This document shows positions 20,743-42,466 of a stretch of DNA of 64,000 nucleotides, piece by piece. How positions within the stretch are numbered: position 1 is the first letter of the stretch; the number at the start of each line of letters is the position of its first letter. Source of the stretch: an uncultured Spirochaetota bacterium (GTDB lineage: Bacteria; Spirochaetota; Spirochaetia; JAFGXN01); NCBI GenBank assembly GCA_944388995.1, contig CALXKN010000001.1:186001-250000 (forward strand), read 5' to 3'. A model generated the notes under the pieces. That model was not told where the DNA came from and ran no database searches. It worked only from the letters and a program-made list of their open reading frames with translations. Position numbers and translations under genes: made by a program.

Positions 20743-20814
20743 GGTGGCGTCGCCAAGTGGTAAGGCAACGGTCTGCAAAACCGTTATTCACCGGTTCAAA
20801 TCCGGTCGCTACCT
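20743..20814 (+). tRNA. tRNA-Cys (anticodon GCA)
   Basis: The acceptor stem GGTGGCG pairs with CGCTACC with one G-U pair. The anticodon arm ACGGT / ACCGT encloses the loop CTGCAAA, with GCA at 20775-20777. The T arm ACCGG-TTCAAAT-CCGGT is perfect, and the discriminator base is T, as expected for cysteine. No CCA is encoded. The 3' end overlaps the stop codon of the convergent NUDIX gene. Confidence 0.96.
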
Positions 20815-31888: not shown

Positions 31889-32599
31889 ATGAAGAAACTT
31901 TTTTTCGCAACGGTTCTCTTCACTCTCCCATTGAAAACTCTCTTTGCGCTGACGTTTCAGGATATGTCAACGGAAAATATAACAATCAAAGTACGGGAAT
32001 GGCTTCAAACGGCGGAAGGGGATCAGGCTCCGATAGTCATGGACGGATTTATGCTTTTGGCACGAAAAGACAATCCGCAGACAAATTACCGCGGAATCGC
32101 TTTCCGTCACGAGGATTTCCGGATTGTCCATAAATTCATGAAAAACAAACTCGGAACTTTTATCATGGCGTATAAATTACCCGAAGGTCAGTCTCCGATT
32201 GTATATCGGCTGATATGCGACGGTCTTTGGAGTGCGGACGCCCTCAACCGCTGCCGGATTCGCGACAGCCGCGGATTTACCCTTTCCTGTCTGCCGTTGA
32301 CCCAACCGATTGCCGATAAACGCGCCACTCCGTATGAAGACGGAGGTGTTGTCATATTCAGGCACGCCGATGACCCCGGACAGACAATTTTTCTGACAGG
32401 CGATTTCATTTCATGGGATCCTTACGCTTACAAAATGACCGAAATGACTCCGGGCTTATATGAAATTTCCGTCCGTCTCCAGGCCGGTATTCACCGTTAT
32501 TATTTTCTTAAAAACGGAACAAAAATTCTTGATGAATCAAATCCTTTCACCGATTACAGCCGCTTAGAAGGTCCTGTTTCCGTTTTTGAATTTTTTTAA
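31889..32599 (+). CDS. Exported protein with C-terminal CBM48/AMPK-type glycogen-binding domain
   Basis: 236 residues with a signal peptide (MKKLFFATVLFTLPLKTLFA). The last 90 residues (VIFRHADDPGQTIFLTGDF, then SWDPYAYKMTEMTPGLYEIS and YYFLKNGTKILD) have the pattern of an E-set domain of the CBM48/AMPK glycogen-binding type: GDFxxWD, the P-G-x-Y-E strand, and YYFLKNG. The N-terminal domain (residues 20-140) is unassigned. There is no catalytic domain, and an exported stand-alone CBM48 is unusual. Its start diverges from the FlcA-like gene. Its 3' end overlaps the ProRS-like gene by 36 bases. Confidence 0.85.
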   Translation: MKKLFFATVLFTLPLKTLFALTFQDMSTENITIKVREWLQTAEGDQAPIVMDGFMLLARKDNPQTNYRGIAFRHEDFRIVHKFMKNKLGTFIMAYKLPEGQSPIVYRLICDGLWSADALNRCRIRDSRGFTLSCLPLTQPIADKRATPYEDGGVVIFRHADDPGQTIFLTGDFISWDPYAYKMTEMTPGLYEISVRLQAGIHRYYFLKNGTKILDESNPFTDYSRLEGPVSVFEFF

Positions 32600-34261
32600 C
32601 AGTAAATCGACGGCATACTCCCGTTTCCGTCCCGTCCGGCGGGTCCATAACCGCACCCGTCTTTTTTTCAGCAGCGCATCGTCGACAATGACCGCATAGG
32701 GGATTCCCGTCAGCCGCGCCGTTTGAAGTTTTTTTGCCGCCGGAAGAAGGCGGTCGTCCAGCAAAATTTCATCGGGGAGCGCCCGGTAAACCGCTTCGGT
32801 CAGATCCCGCGCTTCGGCCGTCTGTCCGTCATTAAAAAGGTAGAGCAAAAACGGCTCCAACCCGCGCGGCCACCCGAAACCGTGTCTGTCACGCGCTTTG
32901 TCGGCGGTAATGAAAAACAGACGCACTAAATCGACAGAGTACGACCCCAAACACACCGGCTGCCGTTTTTTCCGGATCGTCGCGTAAAATCCCATCCGTT
33001 TGGAATACTCATCCCCGGTTTTGATCAGCCGCAGAACCTCGCTCTCTTTCCGAAGCCGCAGAGGCTCTCCGCACTGAATGCACAAATCTCCCTCTTTGAC
33101 AACGGAGATGTCAGCCGTTTCATTTCCTTCAAAATCGACGCCGAAATTGGCATTTTGAAGCACAAAACCCTCTTCATTCAGCCCCAAAACAAAGTTGGAG
33201 CCGTGGACAACGCTTTCATCGACAATGACGTGAATACGGTCGTCCTCATCCAGTCCGACGGGGGAAAGAAAGCGGCTGTCCGGAAAAAACAATGCCGTTT
33301 CGGCCGGAGTGGCCGCACGCAAATAAGTTCCGCCGCTGAGATGCCCCAATTTTTCCTTGCTGATGATGTAATCCCCGCGGCAAACCGTCATCACGAACGA
33401 TTTTTCGGTCCGGAAGAGCGCGCACCTGATCACGGCATAATCGGGAACTCCCAGATATTCCGCCAACTTTTCATAAGTGCGGCAACTTTGCGGAATCCTG
33501 ATTTTTTGAGACGGTTTCAGCTCTTCCACATGGGATGAATGCGCCGATTTGGCCATATGAGAGCGCGCCATGTACCCGCATTTCGGACAGTAAAAAAAGC
33601 GGTCGCTGCCTTTGCCGTCCATATCTGCCGTCAAAGCAAACGCCTTTTCACCGAAGCTGTGGTGCAGCTCTGATTCGGTATAGAGCGTCCGAATGCCCCA
33701 TCCGTTCAGAATTTCGCGGAAAGCCGCGGAAACCGTCGGCAGGAAATCATTCAACTCAATCATATTGCGGTGGGCGGAAAAAATATTCAGCGTCCGGTAT
33801 TCGCGGGCCGCCAACGCCGTTCCCGTCTGATCCCACAGCGGGCGGATTTTATTGGTGTAAAAATAAACGCAGATCGGGAATTCATTTTCGGAAACGGCGA
33901 AGGTCTTCAGAAAATCGATGACATTCTCTTCGTAATGACCGGTCTGAAAAAACTCCTCGCCCTTCTCATTGCGGAAATAAAGCACATCGCCGTCGAAGAT
34001 TTCGTAACGTCCGGATGTAAAAAGGCTTTGGCTGCGGACCAGTTGAGGCAGCTCAACCGGCTGAGCGCCGCGTTTATCCAAAACCGACTCGAGAACCGAC
34101 TCCATCCGCCGCAGAACTCTCGTTCCGAGCGGCAGAAGCGAAACGGATGCGTCTTCCGTATGACGCAAAAATCCCGCCCGCGCCAACAGCAGCGACGTGT
34201 CGGCTTCTTTGACGGAAAAACCGACGCCCTGAACTTTTCCGAGCAAAACAGAGTAACGCAT
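32564..34261 (-). CDS. Divergent prolyl-tRNA synthetase homologue
   Basis: 565 residues, the full bacterial ProRS length and order: class II core, YbaK-like insertion (about 230-390; EKLAEYLGVPDYAVIRCALF) and the anticodon-binding domain (DEILLDDRLLPAAKKLQTAR). Catalytic signatures are degraded. The THEE proline-binding motif reads GHYEEN, the FRDE of motif 2 reads YTNK (Glu to Lys), and the GIG of motif 3 is lost (GSYSVDLVRL). The conserved IRP and the last Arg remain. It may be a ProRS with unusual active-site residues or a paralogue with another role; the genome's other ProRS, if any, lies outside. It starts in a TAATG overlap with the lipoprotein gene upstream and has only a weak ribosome site. 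Confidence 0.85.
   Translation of the reverse strand: MRYSVLLGKVQGVGFSVKEADTSLLLARAGFLRHTEDASVSLLPLGTRVLRRMESVLESVLDKRGAQPVELPQLVRSQSLFTSGRYEIFDGDVLYFRNEKGEEFFQTGHYEENVIDFLKTFAVSENEFPICVYFYTNKIRPLWDQTGTALAAREYRTLNIFSAHRNMIELNDFLPTVSAAFREILNGWGIRTLYTESELHHSFGEKAFALTADMDGKGSDRFFYCPKCGYMARSHMAKSAHSSHVEELKPSQKIRIPQSCRTYEKLAEYLGVPDYAVIRCALFRTEKSFVMTVCRGDYIISKEKLGHLSGGTYLRAATPAETALFFPDSRFLSPVGLDEDDRIHVIVDESVVHGSNFVLGLNEEGFVLQNANFGVDFEGNETADISVVKEGDLCIQCGEPLRLRKESEVLRLIKTGDEYSKRMGFYATIRKKRQPVCLGSYSVDLVRLFFITADKARDRHGFGWPRGLEPFLLYLFNDGQTAEARDLTEAVYRALPDEILLDDRLLPAAKKLQTARLTGIPYAVIVDDALLKKRRVRLWTRRTGRKREYAVDLLLKKFKNGNRTF
32640..32668 (+). terminator. Terminator of the CBM48 gene inside the ProRS-like coding end
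   Basis: Stem CGGGT (32640-32644) / ACCCG (32655-32659) with a 10-base loop, followed by a run of seven T. The stem is short, so strength is uncertain. Confidence 0.5.
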
Positions 34262-35229
34262 TATTGCCCGTCCGAAACGGCGCTCAAAACGACGACTCCG
34301 TCGGAAGACGCTCCGACTTCAATGAACCCGCCGCCTTCCCCGCCGCCGGCCGACGCGGTCACTCCCGAAGAGAGACTCCATGCCTCCGATCCCGCCGATT
34401 CACTCTCAAACCGTAAACTGCTGCCAGACGCTGCGGTCAGAACAGAGTCGCCGAAAAACAGCAGTCCCGCATACAGACCGCGGTAAAGTCCGTCTTCATA
34501 AGCGCCGAAGAAAAACCCGTTCAGAACGTCGGCGTCCAGCCCGTCGGCGGCAAAATCAATCACGCCGTTTTTGTCCCGATCCAATCCGCTCCCGTCAAAA
34601 GCGCCGCGATCCGCCATAAAATCAAGGAGCGACAGCCATGTCGGATAGTCGGGGTTTGCCGTCAGAAGTCCCCGTCCGTCAAAAGCGGGATAAACGTAAT
34701 CGCCCAGCGGCACTCCCTTCTCTTCCATTTTCAGAAGATCATTGTACAAGGCGTTCAAATTTTCATCGCCGACGCCGTCGGGAAACAGACGCGCGCCGCC
34801 GGTTTCATAACCGATCAGAAAATGATGCCGGGTAAACGAAGCGGTGACAACACAGTCGCCCGTCAGAAGAATCAGCGTTGACGGCGAAGCCGGATTTTCG
34901 ATTTCCGCCGCTTCGGCAGGCTCGGCCGTCCACTTTTCAAAGCTCAAAAACGCTCTCGGCCGGCATTCAATCAAAAAACGGAAGTTCCGTTTCTGTTTCA
35001 TTGTAATCCGCGCCGTTTCCCCATCACCTTTTCCGTCGGCCGTCACGGAGGCGGGAATCGAATAACGGAACAGCGCGCCTTCCTCCGACTGCAGTTTTTC
35101 CAAATCGGCGTCGGAAAGCGTTGTGGTCTGCACCGTAAAATTTACAAAAGGAACGGTCAGTCCGCCGTCGCAGGAAAAAGCCAGCGCGGAGAATGCCAAA
35201 AAAACACACGCTTTTACCGGTTTCATCAT
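34261..35229 (-). CDS. Lipoprotein with B-repeat-like domain and a calcium-loop motif
   Basis: 322 residues. The signal ends in lipobox AFSC. Residues about 85-140 (FLSFEKWTAEPAEAAEI, then ILLTGDCVVTASF) follow the pattern of InlB B-repeat or bacterial repeat domains (F-x-x-W...V-T-A-x-F). Residues about 215-235 contain LDRDKNGVIDFAADGLDADV, a dockerin or EF-hand type calcium-binding loop. The tail is Gly/Ser rich. Function unknown; surface exposure is likely. GGAGG precedes the first ATG at 35229, which overlaps the stop of the upstream lipoprotein gene by 4 bases. Confidence 0.85.
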   Translation of the reverse strand: MMKPVKACVFLAFSALAFSCDGGLTVPFVNFTVQTTTLSDADLEKLQSEEGALFRYSIPASVTADGKGDGETARITMKQKRNFRFLIECRPRAFLSFEKWTAEPAEAAEIENPASPSTLILLTGDCVVTASFTRHHFLIGYETGGARLFPDGVGDENLNALYNDLLKMEEKGVPLGDYVYPAFDGRGLLTANPDYPTWLSLLDFMADRGAFDGSGLDRDKNGVIDFAADGLDADVLNGFFFGAYEDGLYRGLYAGLLFFGDSVLTAASGSSLRFESESAGSEAWSLSSGVTASAGGGEGGGFIEVGASSDGVVVLSAVSDGQ

Positions 35230-36041
35230 CCTTCCTCCGTCACATACAAAACGGTTTTTTCAGGCACCCGCTGCGCTTCGGCTTTTTTGTACTCTGCCGC
35301 TGTGTAAAGTTCGCTACGGATTAAATCGCCGGAATCGGAGTAGGTATAAATCTCGATTTCATAAAAATCAGCCGCCGCACTCAGATAAAATCTCTTGGCA
35401 ACCGGCCGCTTTTTTCCCGCAATGCGGCTGTATTCAACCTCGGCCGAAGCGCGGTAAACCCATTCGTTTGCCAAAAAAAGAAAATGCCGCTCGGTTTGCG
35501 GAAGAAAACGGTCCGCGCCGGAAAAATATTCGTATTCGACCGAAGTCATCGGCACATTGCGGTTTTCCGTGACGGGATCGGCGGCGTTGTAGTAATACTT
35601 TTTCAGCGAAACCGTCCGGCCGTTTTTCCCGTCGGTTTCATAAACATCGTAATCAAGTAGTTTCGCCGCCGCTTTCTGCGGATCCTTAACCCGCCCCGCT
35701 TCGGTCTGCGTAAAAATATCGTCGTCAGTATACCGTTCAATCCGCCGCAACCGTTGATCGACGGCCGCGTTGGAAAGATCCTCCAGATTCCAGTATTCAT
35801 ACAGCAGAAACGCCGAAGCGGTTGTCTCGTCTCCGTTTTCATAAACCGCTGCGGAAACCGGCCGCCGCGGATTTTCGCCCTCAAACGCAAACACCGTCTT
35901 TTTAACCCACGACGGATCGCCGGTTTCGGCGCGGCGGTTTTCGTAGACATACTCGGCTGAGTGAGTCTGCACGGTAATCGGCGCGCACGCCGCCGGAAAG
36001 AAAAACAGAACTGAAGAAATTCTCTTAAAAAAATTCCGCAT
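35226..36041 (-). CDS. Lipoprotein of unknown function, leaderless start
   Basis: 271 residues. MRNFFKRISSVLFFFPAAC carries the signal and lipobox. The rest is rich in Tyr and in alternating charged and aromatic residues (VSLKKYYYNAADPV; EYEYFSGADRFLPQTERH), suggesting a beta-sheet fold. I do not recognise the family. It is the first gene of the operon with the B-repeat-like lipoprotein and the ProRS-like gene. The -10 box ends 5 bases before the ATG and there is no ribosome site, so the mRNA is predicted to be leaderless. Confidence 0.82.
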   Translation of the reverse strand: MRNFFKRISSVLFFFPAACAPITVQTHSAEYVYENRRAETGDPSWVKKTVFAFEGENPRRPVSAAVYENGDETTASAFLLYEYWNLEDLSNAAVDQRLRRIERYTDDDIFTQTEAGRVKDPQKAAAKLLDYDVYETDGKNGRTVSLKKYYYNAADPVTENRNVPMTSVEYEYFSGADRFLPQTERHFLFLANEWVYRASAEVEYSRIAGKKRPVAKRFYLSAAADFYEIEIYTYSDSGDLIRSELYTAAEYKKAEAQRVPEKTVLYVTEEG

Positions 36042-36046
36042 GATTC

Positions 36047-36075
36047 ATTTTATCATGAAATTCGATTTTTCTCAA
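36047..36075 (-). promoter_or_regulatory. Promoter of the lipoprotein/ProRS-like operon, leaderless type
   Basis: Minus strand TTGAGA (36070-36075), 17 bp, TAAAAT (36047-36052), then 5 bases and the ATG at 36041. Confidence 0.65.
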
Positions 36076-37033: not shown

Positions 37034-40000
37034 TCAGATCTCTTTGTTTGTAGAATACCATTTACCCGGAAAGACGCGTCCTCCGAATTCCCAGTTGATA
37101 CTGGTATAACGGTCTCCGTAACCGGAAGCCGAATCGAAATAATCGACACGTCCCCAACCTTCCTGCAGATATTCGTTACTGGGTAGGGCGCGGTAATTGC
37201 CTGTTCCGTAATTGGCGCCCAACTCCAGACGGAAATTGCTGGCGCCGGGGTAAGTAACGGAGACGGAGCTGCCCGACAGCATGCCGTGGAAATACGTGCC
37301 TCCGTAGAGGTAAGCCGTCATGCTGACCGAACCTTTCATCCCTTCAATCGGCGTGATGATATCGATTTTATTGTTGTTCAGGCACTGTGCGGCGCTGCCT
37401 CCCAACTTGATGGTAAATCCCGTCCAATCGAATTTGATGAAAAGATCGCGGAAGTAAGAGTATCCGTTGCCGTTGGTGCGCAGGTGCGCCGTTCCCGCAA
37501 GGTCAATGATGTTAACAGAAACACTGACCAGCTCGATAGATCCGTCATTGTTTCCTCCGCGGTTGTTGTTCCACCCCTTTTCCGTCCGGGGATCGCGGTC
37601 CAGACCGACTCCCTGTTCTTCCACCTCGTCGTAATAAGCGGCGGGGATTTCATAAAAAGCGATTTCCCGCAGAATCATTCCCAATGACGCAAATTCGCGC
37701 GGCGTCAGCGACGGGTAACCGTAAACAGGATTGGCTGTTTTTCTTTGAATTGCGGTATCGCTCTTATAGGTCAGCACTACGCGGTAGTCGCAGCGCACCG
37801 CTTCTTTGAAATCAAACCGCCCCGGACGGTCGCCGATGTCGCGGCGGGAATTTGCGTTCCCCGTACTCGGATACGTCTTTGCCAGCGGATTGTCGGGGTG
37901 CCACATGTATTTACGCATGACCCAGTCCCAGTTGAGGTAGTGCCATTCGTATTCCGAAGGCGTTCCGTCGGGGTCGTAAACAACGTCGTACTTCGACGCA
38001 TTCTGATTGACCTTACTCTGCGTCCGCTCATACCACGGATGCATATTTTTTTCCGACCATTTCCGCCGGACGGCAATCAGTTTTTCTCCCGTACTGTCGT
38101 CTGTATCATAAAGGGTGTCGTAAACCGTCAGTTCGTTCGTTGAGGTGAAATTCACGGGATATTCAAGGATAATCGATTTCTCCCATGCCACCTTTGCCGG
38201 AGACGGATCGCTTAAATTGGTGTGATTGCTCAGATCCAACGTTCCGAAGGCGTCTGAGGCCAGCTCATTGGTCTTATACCCCTGATGGGTGCCGTTGTAG
38301 CGGTACGTCCGTTCAATCTGCACGTCAAAAAGGTCAATCAGATTGAGCAGTTCTTCACTCGGCTTCAGTGTCAGCTTGATTTTTCCCTGCGTCTTTTGGT
38401 CGGCCGCCGCAGCCGCATCTCCTTGGCTGGCTGTCAGCGTAACCGCCGTCGACGGATCGGGAATGAAAATACGCACCGTTCTTTCCGCAGGCGACCCTAT
38501 CTCAAAGAGACCGGTCAGTCCGGAGAACTGCGCCGTGAATGCGGCTTTCGAGTTCTTTGTATTTTCATTCACCATGTAAACGCGGTAAATGTAGCGCTTG
38601 TCGGTTGAAGCGTCGGTAATGGCTGCATCGACGTTTGTGTCGCTGTAGGAATTGGCCGACAGCACCGCGCCGTTCAGAACCGACGATTCATCGCTGACGT
38701 CCGTCCATGCATTACCGTTTGCCAGCACTTTGAACTCGGTCAGCGCCGGAGTTTTTTCGGCAGAGTACGGTCCGGCTCTCAGAATGCGGTAAGTGTAACC
38801 GCTTCCCTGCGCATTCCATGACAGGTTGATCGAATCGGTTTTTACCTGTGTCCTGAAATTGGAAACCGGCGCCAATGCAATTCCGTACGCGGTGTTTTTT
38901 GCCGCCTGGTTGTACGACGTCAGAAATTTTCCGATTTTACCTTCCTCTTCCATACCGACGACGGCATAATATGCGCCTTCGTCTCCGCTCTCCACATAGG
39001 CGTAGAAGAGCCCCTTCGTTTCGTCGTAGCCATAACCCTTTTCGGCGGACGCAACCGTCATATCGGTAAAATCAACGACGGGGGTCTTTTGGGTTAAATC
39101 AACGGCTCCGGAGACTTCGTCCGCCGAGAGTTTGTAAACGGCGTATTTTTCCGATTTTGACTCGGGCGCCCACTGAACTTTCGTCCAGCCTTTAACCAGA
39201 TAATTGTCCATTTTGACCGTAATGACTTCCGGAAGACTGTAATCCACAGCGCCGCGGTCGACCGTGAACCGGTACTCGACGCTCGGCGATTCATTCTGAG
39301 CCGCATCGACAGCCTTTACTGTCATTGAATACGCTCCGTCCGCCAGTTCGGAACAGGTAAAATATGCGTTTTGTGTTTCCGTTGTTTCTCCGCGGAAAAC
39401 GCACACATATTTCGAAGCGCCGCTGACAGCCGCCCACTCGATGCGCGGCGTCGTATCGCCTGTCGTATTGACCTTGCCCTGCAACATCGGGGCAGGCGCC
39501 GTAGGCGGATTGATGTCGATGAGAGCAATCGGATACTCTGCGGAAATCGACCAGTCGCCGCCGACGCGGACCTGCACAAAAAGCGTCACATCTTCTGCGT
39601 CAATCAAAAGGCCGTCGGCAATATTGAACGAAACTTCCGTCACAGGCGAAGACTGCGGAACAACCGTCCATGCGCTTCCGCCGTTACTGAAACGGTAACG
39701 AACGCTGTCAATTTGACCGACGCTTGTATCGCCGTTCTGAGTTACTTTGACCTCCGCGTTTTTCATTGAAAAGTTGAGCCACGGACCGCCTTCTTCTCCG
39801 GCTGTCGCTTCGTAAACGGGCACGGCGACCGTCGGGGCGGGCGGAGCTTCTTTGATGTAAGTCCGGAACGTTGCGGTCTTCGACCAGTTGCCGAACTCGT
39901 CGGAGGCCTGCACATGAACCGTTACGGTTTCGCCGACCGTTGCGGTTTTATCGTAAACGACGGTGTTGGCCGTCGGATTTTCTTCGTTCTGCTTCCAGTC

Positions 40001-42466
40001 GCTTCCGGCCGCCGCTTCGTCAACCGTAAACTGCCAGCGGTAAGCGGCCACATCGCGCGGATTGGGGTGCGACAGCGTCCATGTCGGAGAAAATTCCGTC
40101 GTCTCTTCAGAGCCGCCGATCACGGGAGCGTCGGGAGCCAGACCGTCCATGATAATCGGAACGGCGGCAGGCAACGAATTTGTGCCCTCGTCGTCAGTAT
40201 AACATGCTACGACAAAGAGCATCAGCGAGGTGTCTTTTCCTTTGTATTCGTCGCCATACGATACCGAATACGTTGTCGTTCCCGTCGGCAAAGGTTCTTC
40301 GGCGGTATTCGGTTCGCGTCCGACCGAAGCCCACACTTTGGAGACGGTTTTCCCGTCAGGATACGTCCAGTTCCAAACGGCTTGGGATCCTTCTCCGCCG
40401 ACGCGGTCGGCAACCGCTGTGACAATCGGAGCAGGCGGCAGCGAAGCAGAATCAACCACTTCGGTTTCAAATGTCACCTCATCGGAGGCAATTCCGACAA
40501 TATTGACGCTGCGGACACTGAAAACATACGGTCTGTTTGCCAGTGATTCAGGAAGTCCCGACGTCACGGTCACTGACCGTTCGTCGACGCTGTCGGTCTG
40601 CATCCAGGAAGTTGCCTGATTGCCGTTTTTAACATTGATTTGATATTCGAAATAAGCGATGTTTTCAGGATTTGCAATGTCCCAGCTCCACGTCGGATAC
40701 CCCAGCTTTTCACCGCTGATTGTTTCAACGGATCCGACTTTTGTGGAACCGATCAGATTAATCGGCGGCTGCGGTTTTGACGTGCGGTCAACGATGTAAG
40801 TCAGCCCGACGGGATCGCTCCACTGCGGATTTCCCGCATCGTTTCCGTCAATCAGCTGAGACAGATAAAGGGTATAATAACCTTCTTCTTCCGCCGTCAC
40901 CGAATACGAAGTCCCTTTGTTGATAATCCAGCCGCCTTCGGTACTGACTTCAGGCGCCGGCGGGACAGCGTTCTGTCCGTCGTTTTTTGGTGTAAAGAAG
41001 TAAGCGGTTTTGTATTCGGCGCCCGCTTCCAGACCGGGAACGGAAGCCCACATCCAAACCAGTTCCACCTGATCGGTGTACCAATAACCGGACCCGGGAG
41101 AAGTTTCGCTGATGGCGCCTTCCCATCTTGTAAAGGAAGGTTTGTCAGCATCAATCGGCTGATAAACGACCGAAACTTCCACCTGCCGCGATTCGTTGCC
41201 CGCAGCGTCGACAGCCGAAAAATAGAAACGGTAAGTTCCCGCTTCCAGTCCGGTATCCTGCGAAAAAGGTTTGGTAAACGGCGTCCAGTCTTCTTCAACT
41301 TGTTCGGGAACATCAACCGTTCCGACGCCGAGATTGGCTCCGCCTTCCTCTCTGGCATTGATTTTCACCGTATCGTCGGAGACATAAATGCATTGAAATC
41401 CGACAGTCGTATCCGTGCTGACCAGCGCCGGATTGGCGATAAATTCGGGAACGTCGGGGGCGGTGATATCAATGCGGAAAAACAACGCCGCCTCTTTCGA
41501 CCAAATTCCCAGTTCGTTCTGAGCCTGAACAAAGAAAACATAGAGTCCTTCGGTCAGCTTATTGAATACGGCGGAAGATAACGCTCCGCTGACCCATTTG
41601 TCGGTATCGGGCACAACACCTTCCGTTGTTTCAACCGCCTTCATCTGGAAACGGCACGGAGCCTGCTCTCCCGAATCAAACGATTCTGCGCGCCATTCAA
41701 TTTCCAGAGTTTTCTTATTGGTCTCATAAACGCCGCCCTCTTCAGTCGGCTTCGGAGAGAGAATTTCCGGAGGCGTCGTTCCGTATTCGGTATTGACTTC
41801 AAACTCGACGCTGCCGCTCTCTTCCGCCGCTTTGCCCAAAACGGTGTACGGCAGAACTTCCAGAATGTAACAGCCGTCTTCCAGCTCAATATCAAGTTTC
41901 AGGTAACGGACATCGGCGCTGAAAATCAGCGTATCGAAAACGGCGTTCCAACTTTCATCATCGCCTTTTTTCTTCAGCGACACGGCGTAAGAGGCGGCAT
42001 CGGCGGCCTCCGTCCAACGGAAAGAGGGCGAGCGTTCGCTGATGAGGCTTCCTTCAATACATTCCACCGTCGGCGCCGCATTAATGGATCCGGTATTAAC
42101 GGTAAACAGGAAGGTTACCGCAGGCGAAGCCACATCGGGATCTTTTTTCTTTTCGCCGGGGCGGTAGGAGACAACCTGCAATACGTAAACGCCGTCGGGG
42201 AGTTTTTTCGGTACCTGCCACGAGACGTTTTCGGCAGCACTCACTTTAACGGGGGCGACCGCCTCTTTTCCCGTTGCCTGATCGAGGACGGAAACCATGT
42301 AATAAGTCGCGCCGCCGACCGCCTCCTTCCATTTGAAAGTCGGCTGAGCGGAGGCCGTCAGAGTCGAACCTTCAACAATCGGAGGAAACAGAGCGATTTT
42401 ATCTTTACAGCCGATCAAAACGGCCGTCAATACCAGCAGAAACGCAAAAGCTTTTTTCATCGACAT
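37034..42466 (-). CDS. Giant repeat lipoprotein, Fn3/Ig-like (1810 aa)
   Basis: 1810 residues, lipobox LIGC after a 19-residue signal. Most of the protein is about a dozen beta-sandwich repeats of 90-110 residues of Fn3/Ig type. Each repeat typically has P-x-F-x-W near its start and a DxxGNxS turn near its end (for example VDAAGNESRQVEVSV, ASDEFGNWSKTATF). The last 450 residues are different: an aromatic-rich stretch with WHPDNPLAKTYP and a final glycine-rich beta domain (GYSYFRDLFIKFDWTGF). It is probably a long surface stalk or adhesin. AAGGAG lies 9 bases before the ATG at 42466. It follows the 1532-aa paralogue by 14 bases in the same operon. Confidence 0.9.
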   Translation of the reverse strand: MSMKKAFAFLLVLTAVLIGCKDKIALFPPIVEGSTLTASAQPTFKWKEAVGGATYYMVSVLDQATGKEAVAPVKVSAAENVSWQVPKKLPDGVYVLQVVSYRPGEKKKDPDVASPAVTFLFTVNTGSINAAPTVECIEGSLISERSPSFRWTEAADAASYAVSLKKKGDDESWNAVFDTLIFSADVRYLKLDIELEDGCYILEVLPYTVLGKAAEESGSVEFEVNTEYGTTPPEILSPKPTEEGGVYETNKKTLEIEWRAESFDSGEQAPCRFQMKAVETTEGVVPDTDKWVSGALSSAVFNKLTEGLYVFFVQAQNELGIWSKEAALFFRIDITAPDVPEFIANPALVSTDTTVGFQCIYVSDDTVKINAREEGGANLGVGTVDVPEQVEEDWTPFTKPFSQDTGLEAGTYRFYFSAVDAAGNESRQVEVSVVYQPIDADKPSFTRWEGAISETSPGSGYWYTDQVELVWMWASVPGLEAGAEYKTAYFFTPKNDGQNAVPPAPEVSTEGGWIINKGTSYSVTAEEEGYYTLYLSQLIDGNDAGNPQWSDPVGLTYIVDRTSKPQPPINLIGSTKVGSVETISGEKLGYPTWSWDIANPENIAYFEYQINVKNGNQATSWMQTDSVDERSVTVTSGLPESLANRPYVFSVRSVNIVGIASDEVTFETEVVDSASLPPAPIVTAVADRVGGEGSQAVWNWTYPDGKTVSKVWASVGREPNTAEEPLPTGTTTYSVSYGDEYKGKDTSLMLFVVACYTDDEGTNSLPAAVPIIMDGLAPDAPVIGGSEETTEFSPTWTLSHPNPRDVAAYRWQFTVDEAAAGSDWKQNEENPTANTVVYDKTATVGETVTVHVQASDEFGNWSKTATFRTYIKEAPPAPTVAVPVYEATAGEEGGPWLNFSMKNAEVKVTQNGDTSVGQIDSVRYRFSNGGSAWTVVPQSSPVTEVSFNIADGLLIDAEDVTLFVQVRVGGDWSISAEYPIALIDINPPTAPAPMLQGKVNTTGDTTPRIEWAAVSGASKYVCVFRGETTETQNAYFTCSELADGAYSMTVKAVDAAQNESPSVEYRFTVDRGAVDYSLPEVITVKMDNYLVKGWTKVQWAPESKSEKYAVYKLSADEVSGAVDLTQKTPVVDFTDMTVASAEKGYGYDETKGLFYAYVESGDEGAYYAVVGMEEEGKIGKFLTSYNQAAKNTAYGIALAPVSNFRTQVKTDSINLSWNAQGSGYTYRILRAGPYSAEKTPALTEFKVLANGNAWTDVSDESSVLNGAVLSANSYSDTNVDAAITDASTDKRYIYRVYMVNENTKNSKAAFTAQFSGLTGLFEIGSPAERTVRIFIPDPSTAVTLTASQGDAAAAADQKTQGKIKLTLKPSEELLNLIDLFDVQIERTYRYNGTHQGYKTNELASDAFGTLDLSNHTNLSDPSPAKVAWEKSIILEYPVNFTSTNELTVYDTLYDTDDSTGEKLIAVRRKWSEKNMHPWYERTQSKVNQNASKYDVVYDPDGTPSEYEWHYLNWDWVMRKYMWHPDNPLAKTYPSTGNANSRRDIGDRPGRFDFKEAVRCDYRVVLTYKSDTAIQRKTANPVYGYPSLTPREFASLGMILREIAFYEIPAAYYDEVEEQGVGLDRDPRTEKGWNNNRGGNNDGSIELVSVSVNIIDLAGTAHLRTNGNGYSYFRDLFIKFDWTGFTIKLGGSAAQCLNNNKIDIITPIEGMKGSVSMTAYLYGGTYFHGMLSGSSVSVTYPGASNFRLELGANYGTGNYRALPSNEYLQEGWGRVDYFDSASGYGDRYTSINWEFGGRVFPGKWYSTNKEI

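Follow-up and report, generated by a model that had tools for sequence, protein, structure and literature searches.

A ProRS-like gene behind two lipoprotein-like genes

The window, a stretch of 64,000 nucleotides from an uncultured Spirochaetota bacterium, carries a unit of three genes on its minus strand. The last of these (32564-34261) encodes a 565-residue protein from an ATG start, which a preliminary description of this DNA had called a full-length homologue of prolyl-tRNA synthetase (ProRS). The exact frame is present in the open reading frame list, and its product matches ProRS proteins nearly from end to end. We assign it to ProRS2, a name coined here for a second lineage of family II ProRS, as a member with a degraded synthetic site. 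The unit begins with a lipoprotein-like gene (35226-36041) whose stop overlaps the start of the next, and the stop of that second lipoprotein-like gene (34261-35229) overlaps the ProRS-like start in the sequence TAATG. The operon with two lipoproteins that had been proposed is thus borne out, as both lipoprotein-like genes are real and their stop and start codons overlap. A promoter-like site lies before the three genes on the same strand (36047-36075), matching at 10/12 positions, which is a consensus match only. Converging on the ProRS-like gene from the plus strand is a gene encoding a protein with a glycogen-binding (AMPK1_CBM) domain (31889-32599).

The sister species G001, of the same genus (an uncultured Spirochaetes bacterium, contig CALXOJ010000002.1), has the same arrangement, with the two lipoprotein-like genes directly ahead of the ProRS-like gene. 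Upstream of the lipoprotein genes, the minus strand encodes an 1810-residue protein that seems to have a lipoprotein signal and in which some segments look repeated (37034-42466), and a tRNA-Cys (GCA) gene lies on the plus strand at 20743-20814.

A predicted whole fold with a degraded synthetic site

Nearly full-length matches to the NCBIfam ProRS profiles fell far short of the curated cut-offs, at 232.6 bits against 558 for NF006625 (42%) and 174.4 bits against 306.7 for TIGR00409 (57%). A Pfam search found the editing domain PF04073 and the anticodon domain PF03129; the class II core PF00587, which is detected in the same-family relative G002, was absent among the six Pfam matches of the window protein. 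Alignment to characterised ProRS, a check that had been suggested, matched bacterial ProRS in the PDB nearly end to end (5ZNJ, E 2.8e-46; 2J3L, E 2.2e-43). An AlphaFold2 model made from 35 sequences reached a mean pLDDT of 89.1 and a pTM of 0.86. Its best solved structure is the Enterococcus faecalis enzyme 2J3L (Foldseek E 1.6e-53, TM 0.81; by VIA, Z 41.9 over 551 residues with an rmsd of 4.7), with which it shares the fold and domain order of family II ProRS. Given the near end-to-end matches and this confident model, the predicted fold is whole and is that of a bacterial (family II) ProRS. The N-terminus reads GKVQGVGFS (34214-34240), which resembles the acylphosphatase signature; weak acylphosphatase matches at this point (best E 0.0023) are probably due to chance.

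We aligned the window protein with 38 relatives, and later with 80 more loci. In the TXE loop (residues 109-112; 33926-33937, minus strand, as for all features that follow in this section), THEE has become HYEE through T109H and H110Y. The preliminary description had seen GHYEEN in place of THEE; the alignment pairs THEE with HYEE and leaves E111 and E112 in place. Motif 2 (residues 138-159; 33785-33850) is indeed degraded, with D141P, E142L, R144D, R146T, G148T, R151A and D159N, but FRDE aligns with IRPL rather than with the YTNK first proposed, and its arginine, R140, is kept. The reported loss of GIG from motif 3 (residues 437-448; 32918-32953) is confirmed: SYGIGxxRL reads SYSVDLVRL (G442S, G444D), with R447 kept, and TVD replaces GIG in the sister species. 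Of the residues tested in the TXE, motif 2 RxE and motif 3 GxGxxR set, only E111, R140 and R447 remain. Four cysteines are retained in two CxxC pairs (residues 225-228, 33578-33589; residues 394-397, 33071-33082).

The motif losses are common to the sister species, whose protein is 92% identical, which rules out sequencing or assembly error as their cause. The aminoacylation-site residues are gone and the synthetic site is broken; what individual active-site residues do, apart from points covered by the papers cited here, is taken as general background. The window protein resembles bacterial family II ProRS with an INS domain in length, domain order, predicted fold, R140 and R447; it differs in having lost residues of the TXE loop and of motifs 2 and 3, and in scoring far below the family cut-offs.

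The editing-like INS domain (about residues 246-392; 33086-33526) matches PF04073 with 47 bits against a Pfam cut-off of 25.5, and the anticodon-binding domain (PF03129) covers about residues 469-565 (32567-32857). The INS lysine, which is described as strictly conserved in the superfamily in PMC10164551, is Arg279 in the window species and Lys in its sister. At position 367 the usual histidine is Val in both species; the two residues occur together in neither, and R375 has become Val in the window protein. The lysine is also replaced, by I, L, V or R, in the ProRS2 proteins of L102, L111, L112, L113, L051, L090 and L109, whose synthetic motifs are normal or near-normal, so loss of the editing site recurs in the ProRS2 lineage.

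Columns counted as conserved if their identity reached 95% or more across 107 other rows, which were what remained of a 119-row set after removal of three rows from the window genus, seven duplicates and two rows of poor quality. The window protein retains 22/42 of these columns in the aminoacylation domain, 13/15 in the linker and INS, and 8/10 in the anticodon domain. The first figure compares with 21/25 for linker, INS and anticodon domain together (Fisher p 0.0099), and at 90% columns the comparison is 26/52 with 29/37 (p 0.008); both p values are rough because columns are not independent. The earlier remark that the INS and anticodon domains are better kept than the synthetic part agrees with these counts, and the pattern looks like one of lost synthesis with better-kept tRNA-facing parts.

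A second ProRS lineage in spirochaetes

In a tree of 109 proteins (quick IQ-TREE, SH-aLRT), 43 canonical family II ProRS form one clade (support 100), and the other 66 rows are ProRS2. We refer to the group that carries ProRS2 as spirochaetes, since most ProRS2 loci in the scan are titled Spirochaetes or Spirochaetales. The window pair falls outside the canonical clade, beside G002, on a very long branch. Because that stem is so long, the placement beside G002 is insecure by itself; it is supported by the neighbouring gene, since the family of the CBM gene directly adjoins ProRS2 in the window, the sister species and G002 (the glycogen-binding domain being that of the window protein). We judge that the window protein belongs to a ProRS2 lineage widespread in spirochaetes, with which it shares the CBM neighbour and branch of G002 and the two CxxC pairs. 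Unlike it, the rest of ProRS2 has intact synthetic motifs almost throughout: [TS]xEE, R140, E142, R151 and a motif 3 of the form G-x-G are present in nearly all rows. Those that depart from this are a few in which residue 111 is I or L, one in which residue 151 is K, and G002, which has H151 and GIS. A plasmid search gave only matches below 60% identity (25-27% for the five matches listed).

The setting differs as well. Most ProRS2 genes stand divergent from enolase and are followed by a fused UPF0158-GNAT gene that overlaps them or starts a few bases downstream (L035:527-3165, L049:5140-7721, L054:4196-6847 and others). This gene is directly downstream in 55/64 ProRS2 rows, a count for which 2/66 rows without downstream DNA were dropped and the window row was set by hand to 'no neighbour'. 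At the window-genus locus both enolase and UPF0158-GNAT genes are absent, with the lipoprotein-like pair upstream instead; the latter gene is also absent beside ProRS2 in the sister species, G002 and six other rows, and its model found only weak GNAT-region matches across the window genome (best E 3.1e-6). The earlier remark on the operon holds for the window genus, but ProRS2 elsewhere lies beside enolase and UPF0158-GNAT.

The findings indicate that spirochaetes have a second, conserved ProRS whose UPF0158-GNAT neighbour is dedicated to it, and this recurrent pair is possibly of more interest than the window gene. A fold search with the UPF0158-GNAT protein returned GNAT folds, which for the most part matched the C-terminal half, and yielded no functional lead. 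The TXE loop is intact in 55/55 rows with the neighbour and in 2/9 without (Fisher 5.8e-8); despite these strong raw counts we claim no coupling, because no more than 3 and 2 changes are required on the tree, and an independent-pairs test gives p 1. Acylphosphatase-like genes occur near enolase at other ProRS2 loci.

ProRS2 is present in 18/40 relatives, all of which have another ProRS: family I only in 11, canonical family II only in 6, and both in 1. Six of the genomes with family I ProRS (G000, which is the window genome, G001, G002, G009, G028 and G034) have PF04073 in ProRS2 alone. Among relatives with family I ProRS only, PF04073 is absent in 7/7 (G008, G014, G015, G016, G021, G036, G039). 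A wider survey of 297 genomes, sorted by eye, contained four ProRS2 genomes without a clear second ProRS: G063 and G271 have a fragment of one, and none was seen in G210 (74% complete) or G223 (93% complete). Given the last two, a rule that ProRS2 is never the only ProRS is not proven.

Constraint on the gene and its possible roles

The search for a second proS, which had also been suggested, found an intact ProRS of family I, the archaeal/eukaryotic type, on the window's own contig, outside the window (G000:C1:385045-386463; it scores 611 bits where the cut-off is 437). It is identical at 460/473 positions in the sister species (dN/dS 0.029, NG86), and its presence rules out the window protein as the sole ProRS of the genome. 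The initial view of a full-length, synthetase-derived protein with degraded motifs is supported. The single PF04073 match in the whole genome is the window protein itself; a stand-alone INS-type protein was not found by this search, and the family I ProRS therefore has no INS domain.

We considered that the window protein might still be a very divergent working ProRS, serving under stress or on an odd tRNA in the manner of Streptomyces ProRSx. In a table of the review PMC9437257, ProRSx is the sole ProRS paralogue with a known function, and it still charges tRNA. The retained E111, E112, R140 and R447 would suit such an enzyme, as would the active look of most other ProRS2 sequences, but T109, E142 and R151 have been lost, along with both glycines of motif 3. 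Nor was a substrate of the ProRSx kind seen: three genes for tRNA(Pro) were identified (UGG, CGG, GGG), of which UGG and CGG have by eye the C1:G72 and A73 of ordinary bacterial tRNA(Pro), two tRNA(Ala) genes were seen, both beginning with G, and no partner with a Pro body and an Ala anticodon was present among the tRNA genes found in this ~98% complete genome. We regard a working enzyme, an option that the preliminary description had left standing, as improbable.

The gene may alternatively be decaying. The stem of the window pair is long (2.87 changes per site in the 109-protein tree, against ~0.05 for the tips) and many conserved sites are lost, as expected of a gene on its way out. However, the frame is open in both species, the predicted fold is full-length and confident, and the two proteins are identical at 517/565 positions, with dN 0.045, dS 0.69 and dN/dS of 0.065 (NG86) or 0.10 (YN00); its neighbours range from 0.029 to 0.144 (NG86). 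By part, dN/dS (NG86) is 0.048 for residues 1-200, 0.071 for INS, 0.071 for the motif 3 part and 0.118 for the anticodon domain. With values low overall and in each part, the gene looks functional, no part drifts freely, and purifying selection acts on it now. These values disfavour a pseudogene, and we consider decay very improbable. The window genus copy has passed through a huge burst of change, followed by purifying selection.

In the same comparison the aminoacylation remnant (188/200 identical) changes no faster than INS (134/147) or the anticodon domain (84/97). The former synthetic domain must therefore still have a function, one for which editing alone does not account.

Our main reading, to which we give a probability of about 0.85, is that the window protein is an aminoacylation-dead but functional paralogue with another role: a normally catalytic-looking ProRS2 would have lost aminoacylation in the window genus and been kept for another job. 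The job we find most plausible, while not backing it at even odds, is to proofread Ala-tRNA(Pro) in trans on behalf of the family I ProRS, which has no INS. The protein would bind tRNA(Pro) through its anticodon domain, the mischarged 3' end would be delivered to INS, and INS would clear Ala-tRNA(Pro). According to PMC3973320, it is the anticodon domain that makes editing by Escherichia coli ProRS specific for its tRNA, and elements of the acceptor stem are not needed for this, which would leave the motif 2 loop free to decay.

A known counterpart is ProXp-ala, used by bacteria whose ProRS has no working INS, as PMC10164551 describes. The likeness is that an INS-type domain shares the genome with a working ProRS that lacks one; the differences are that ProXp-ala is free-standing, whereas the window INS is fused to a whole synthetase and has Arg at the key lysine, and that ProXp-ala reads the acceptor stem (PMC10164551), unlike the route through the anticodon domain proposed here. 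Were the proposal true, trans-editing would have arisen by way of a killed synthetic site and not of an excised editing domain. The domain pattern fits the editing factor suggested at the outset, but Arg279, Val367 and Val375 count against it, as do the INS-less family-I-only relatives; with PF04073 absent in 7/7 of them, this editing is dispensable in the class. The more inclusive proposal, in which a whole ProRS has turned into a tRNA(Pro)-specific trans-proofreader or a tRNA(Pro)-sensing regulator serving an INS-less ProRS of the other family, is slightly more doubtful.

The constraint on the old synthetic domain would be explained about as well by a regulator or scaffold like HisZ or SLIMP, in which that domain binds a partner or small molecule, performs no tRNA chemistry and is perhaps linked to the two lipoproteins. 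We hold this pseudo-enzyme to be possible, again short of an even chance. The former synthetic domain is now at least as constrained as the rest, neither species retains both the usual INS Lys and His, the gene directly follows the two lipoprotein-like genes in both, and HisZ and SLIMP are precedents (PMC9437257). A pure scaffold, however, would not need the better-kept INS and anticodon columns, which the proofreading proposal accommodates.

Several synthetases are known to have paralogues that took on new roles. HisZ, PoxA/EpmA and SLIMP resemble the window protein as synthetase paralogues that coexist with a normal enzyme and do, or are suspected to do, something else; the window protein differs from them in being derived from ProRS. 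In a literature search of open-licence papers we recognised neither a second ProRS of spirochaetes nor a dead-site ProRS. A full-length ProRS with a dead site that is held by selection would offer a clean system for studying INS and anticodon function without aminoacylation. Separately, in a ProRS homologue from a Chloroflexi MAG (L121:437-2125), FFDE and RYRLYADR replace motifs 2 and 3; it may be another dead copy or reflect poor assembly.
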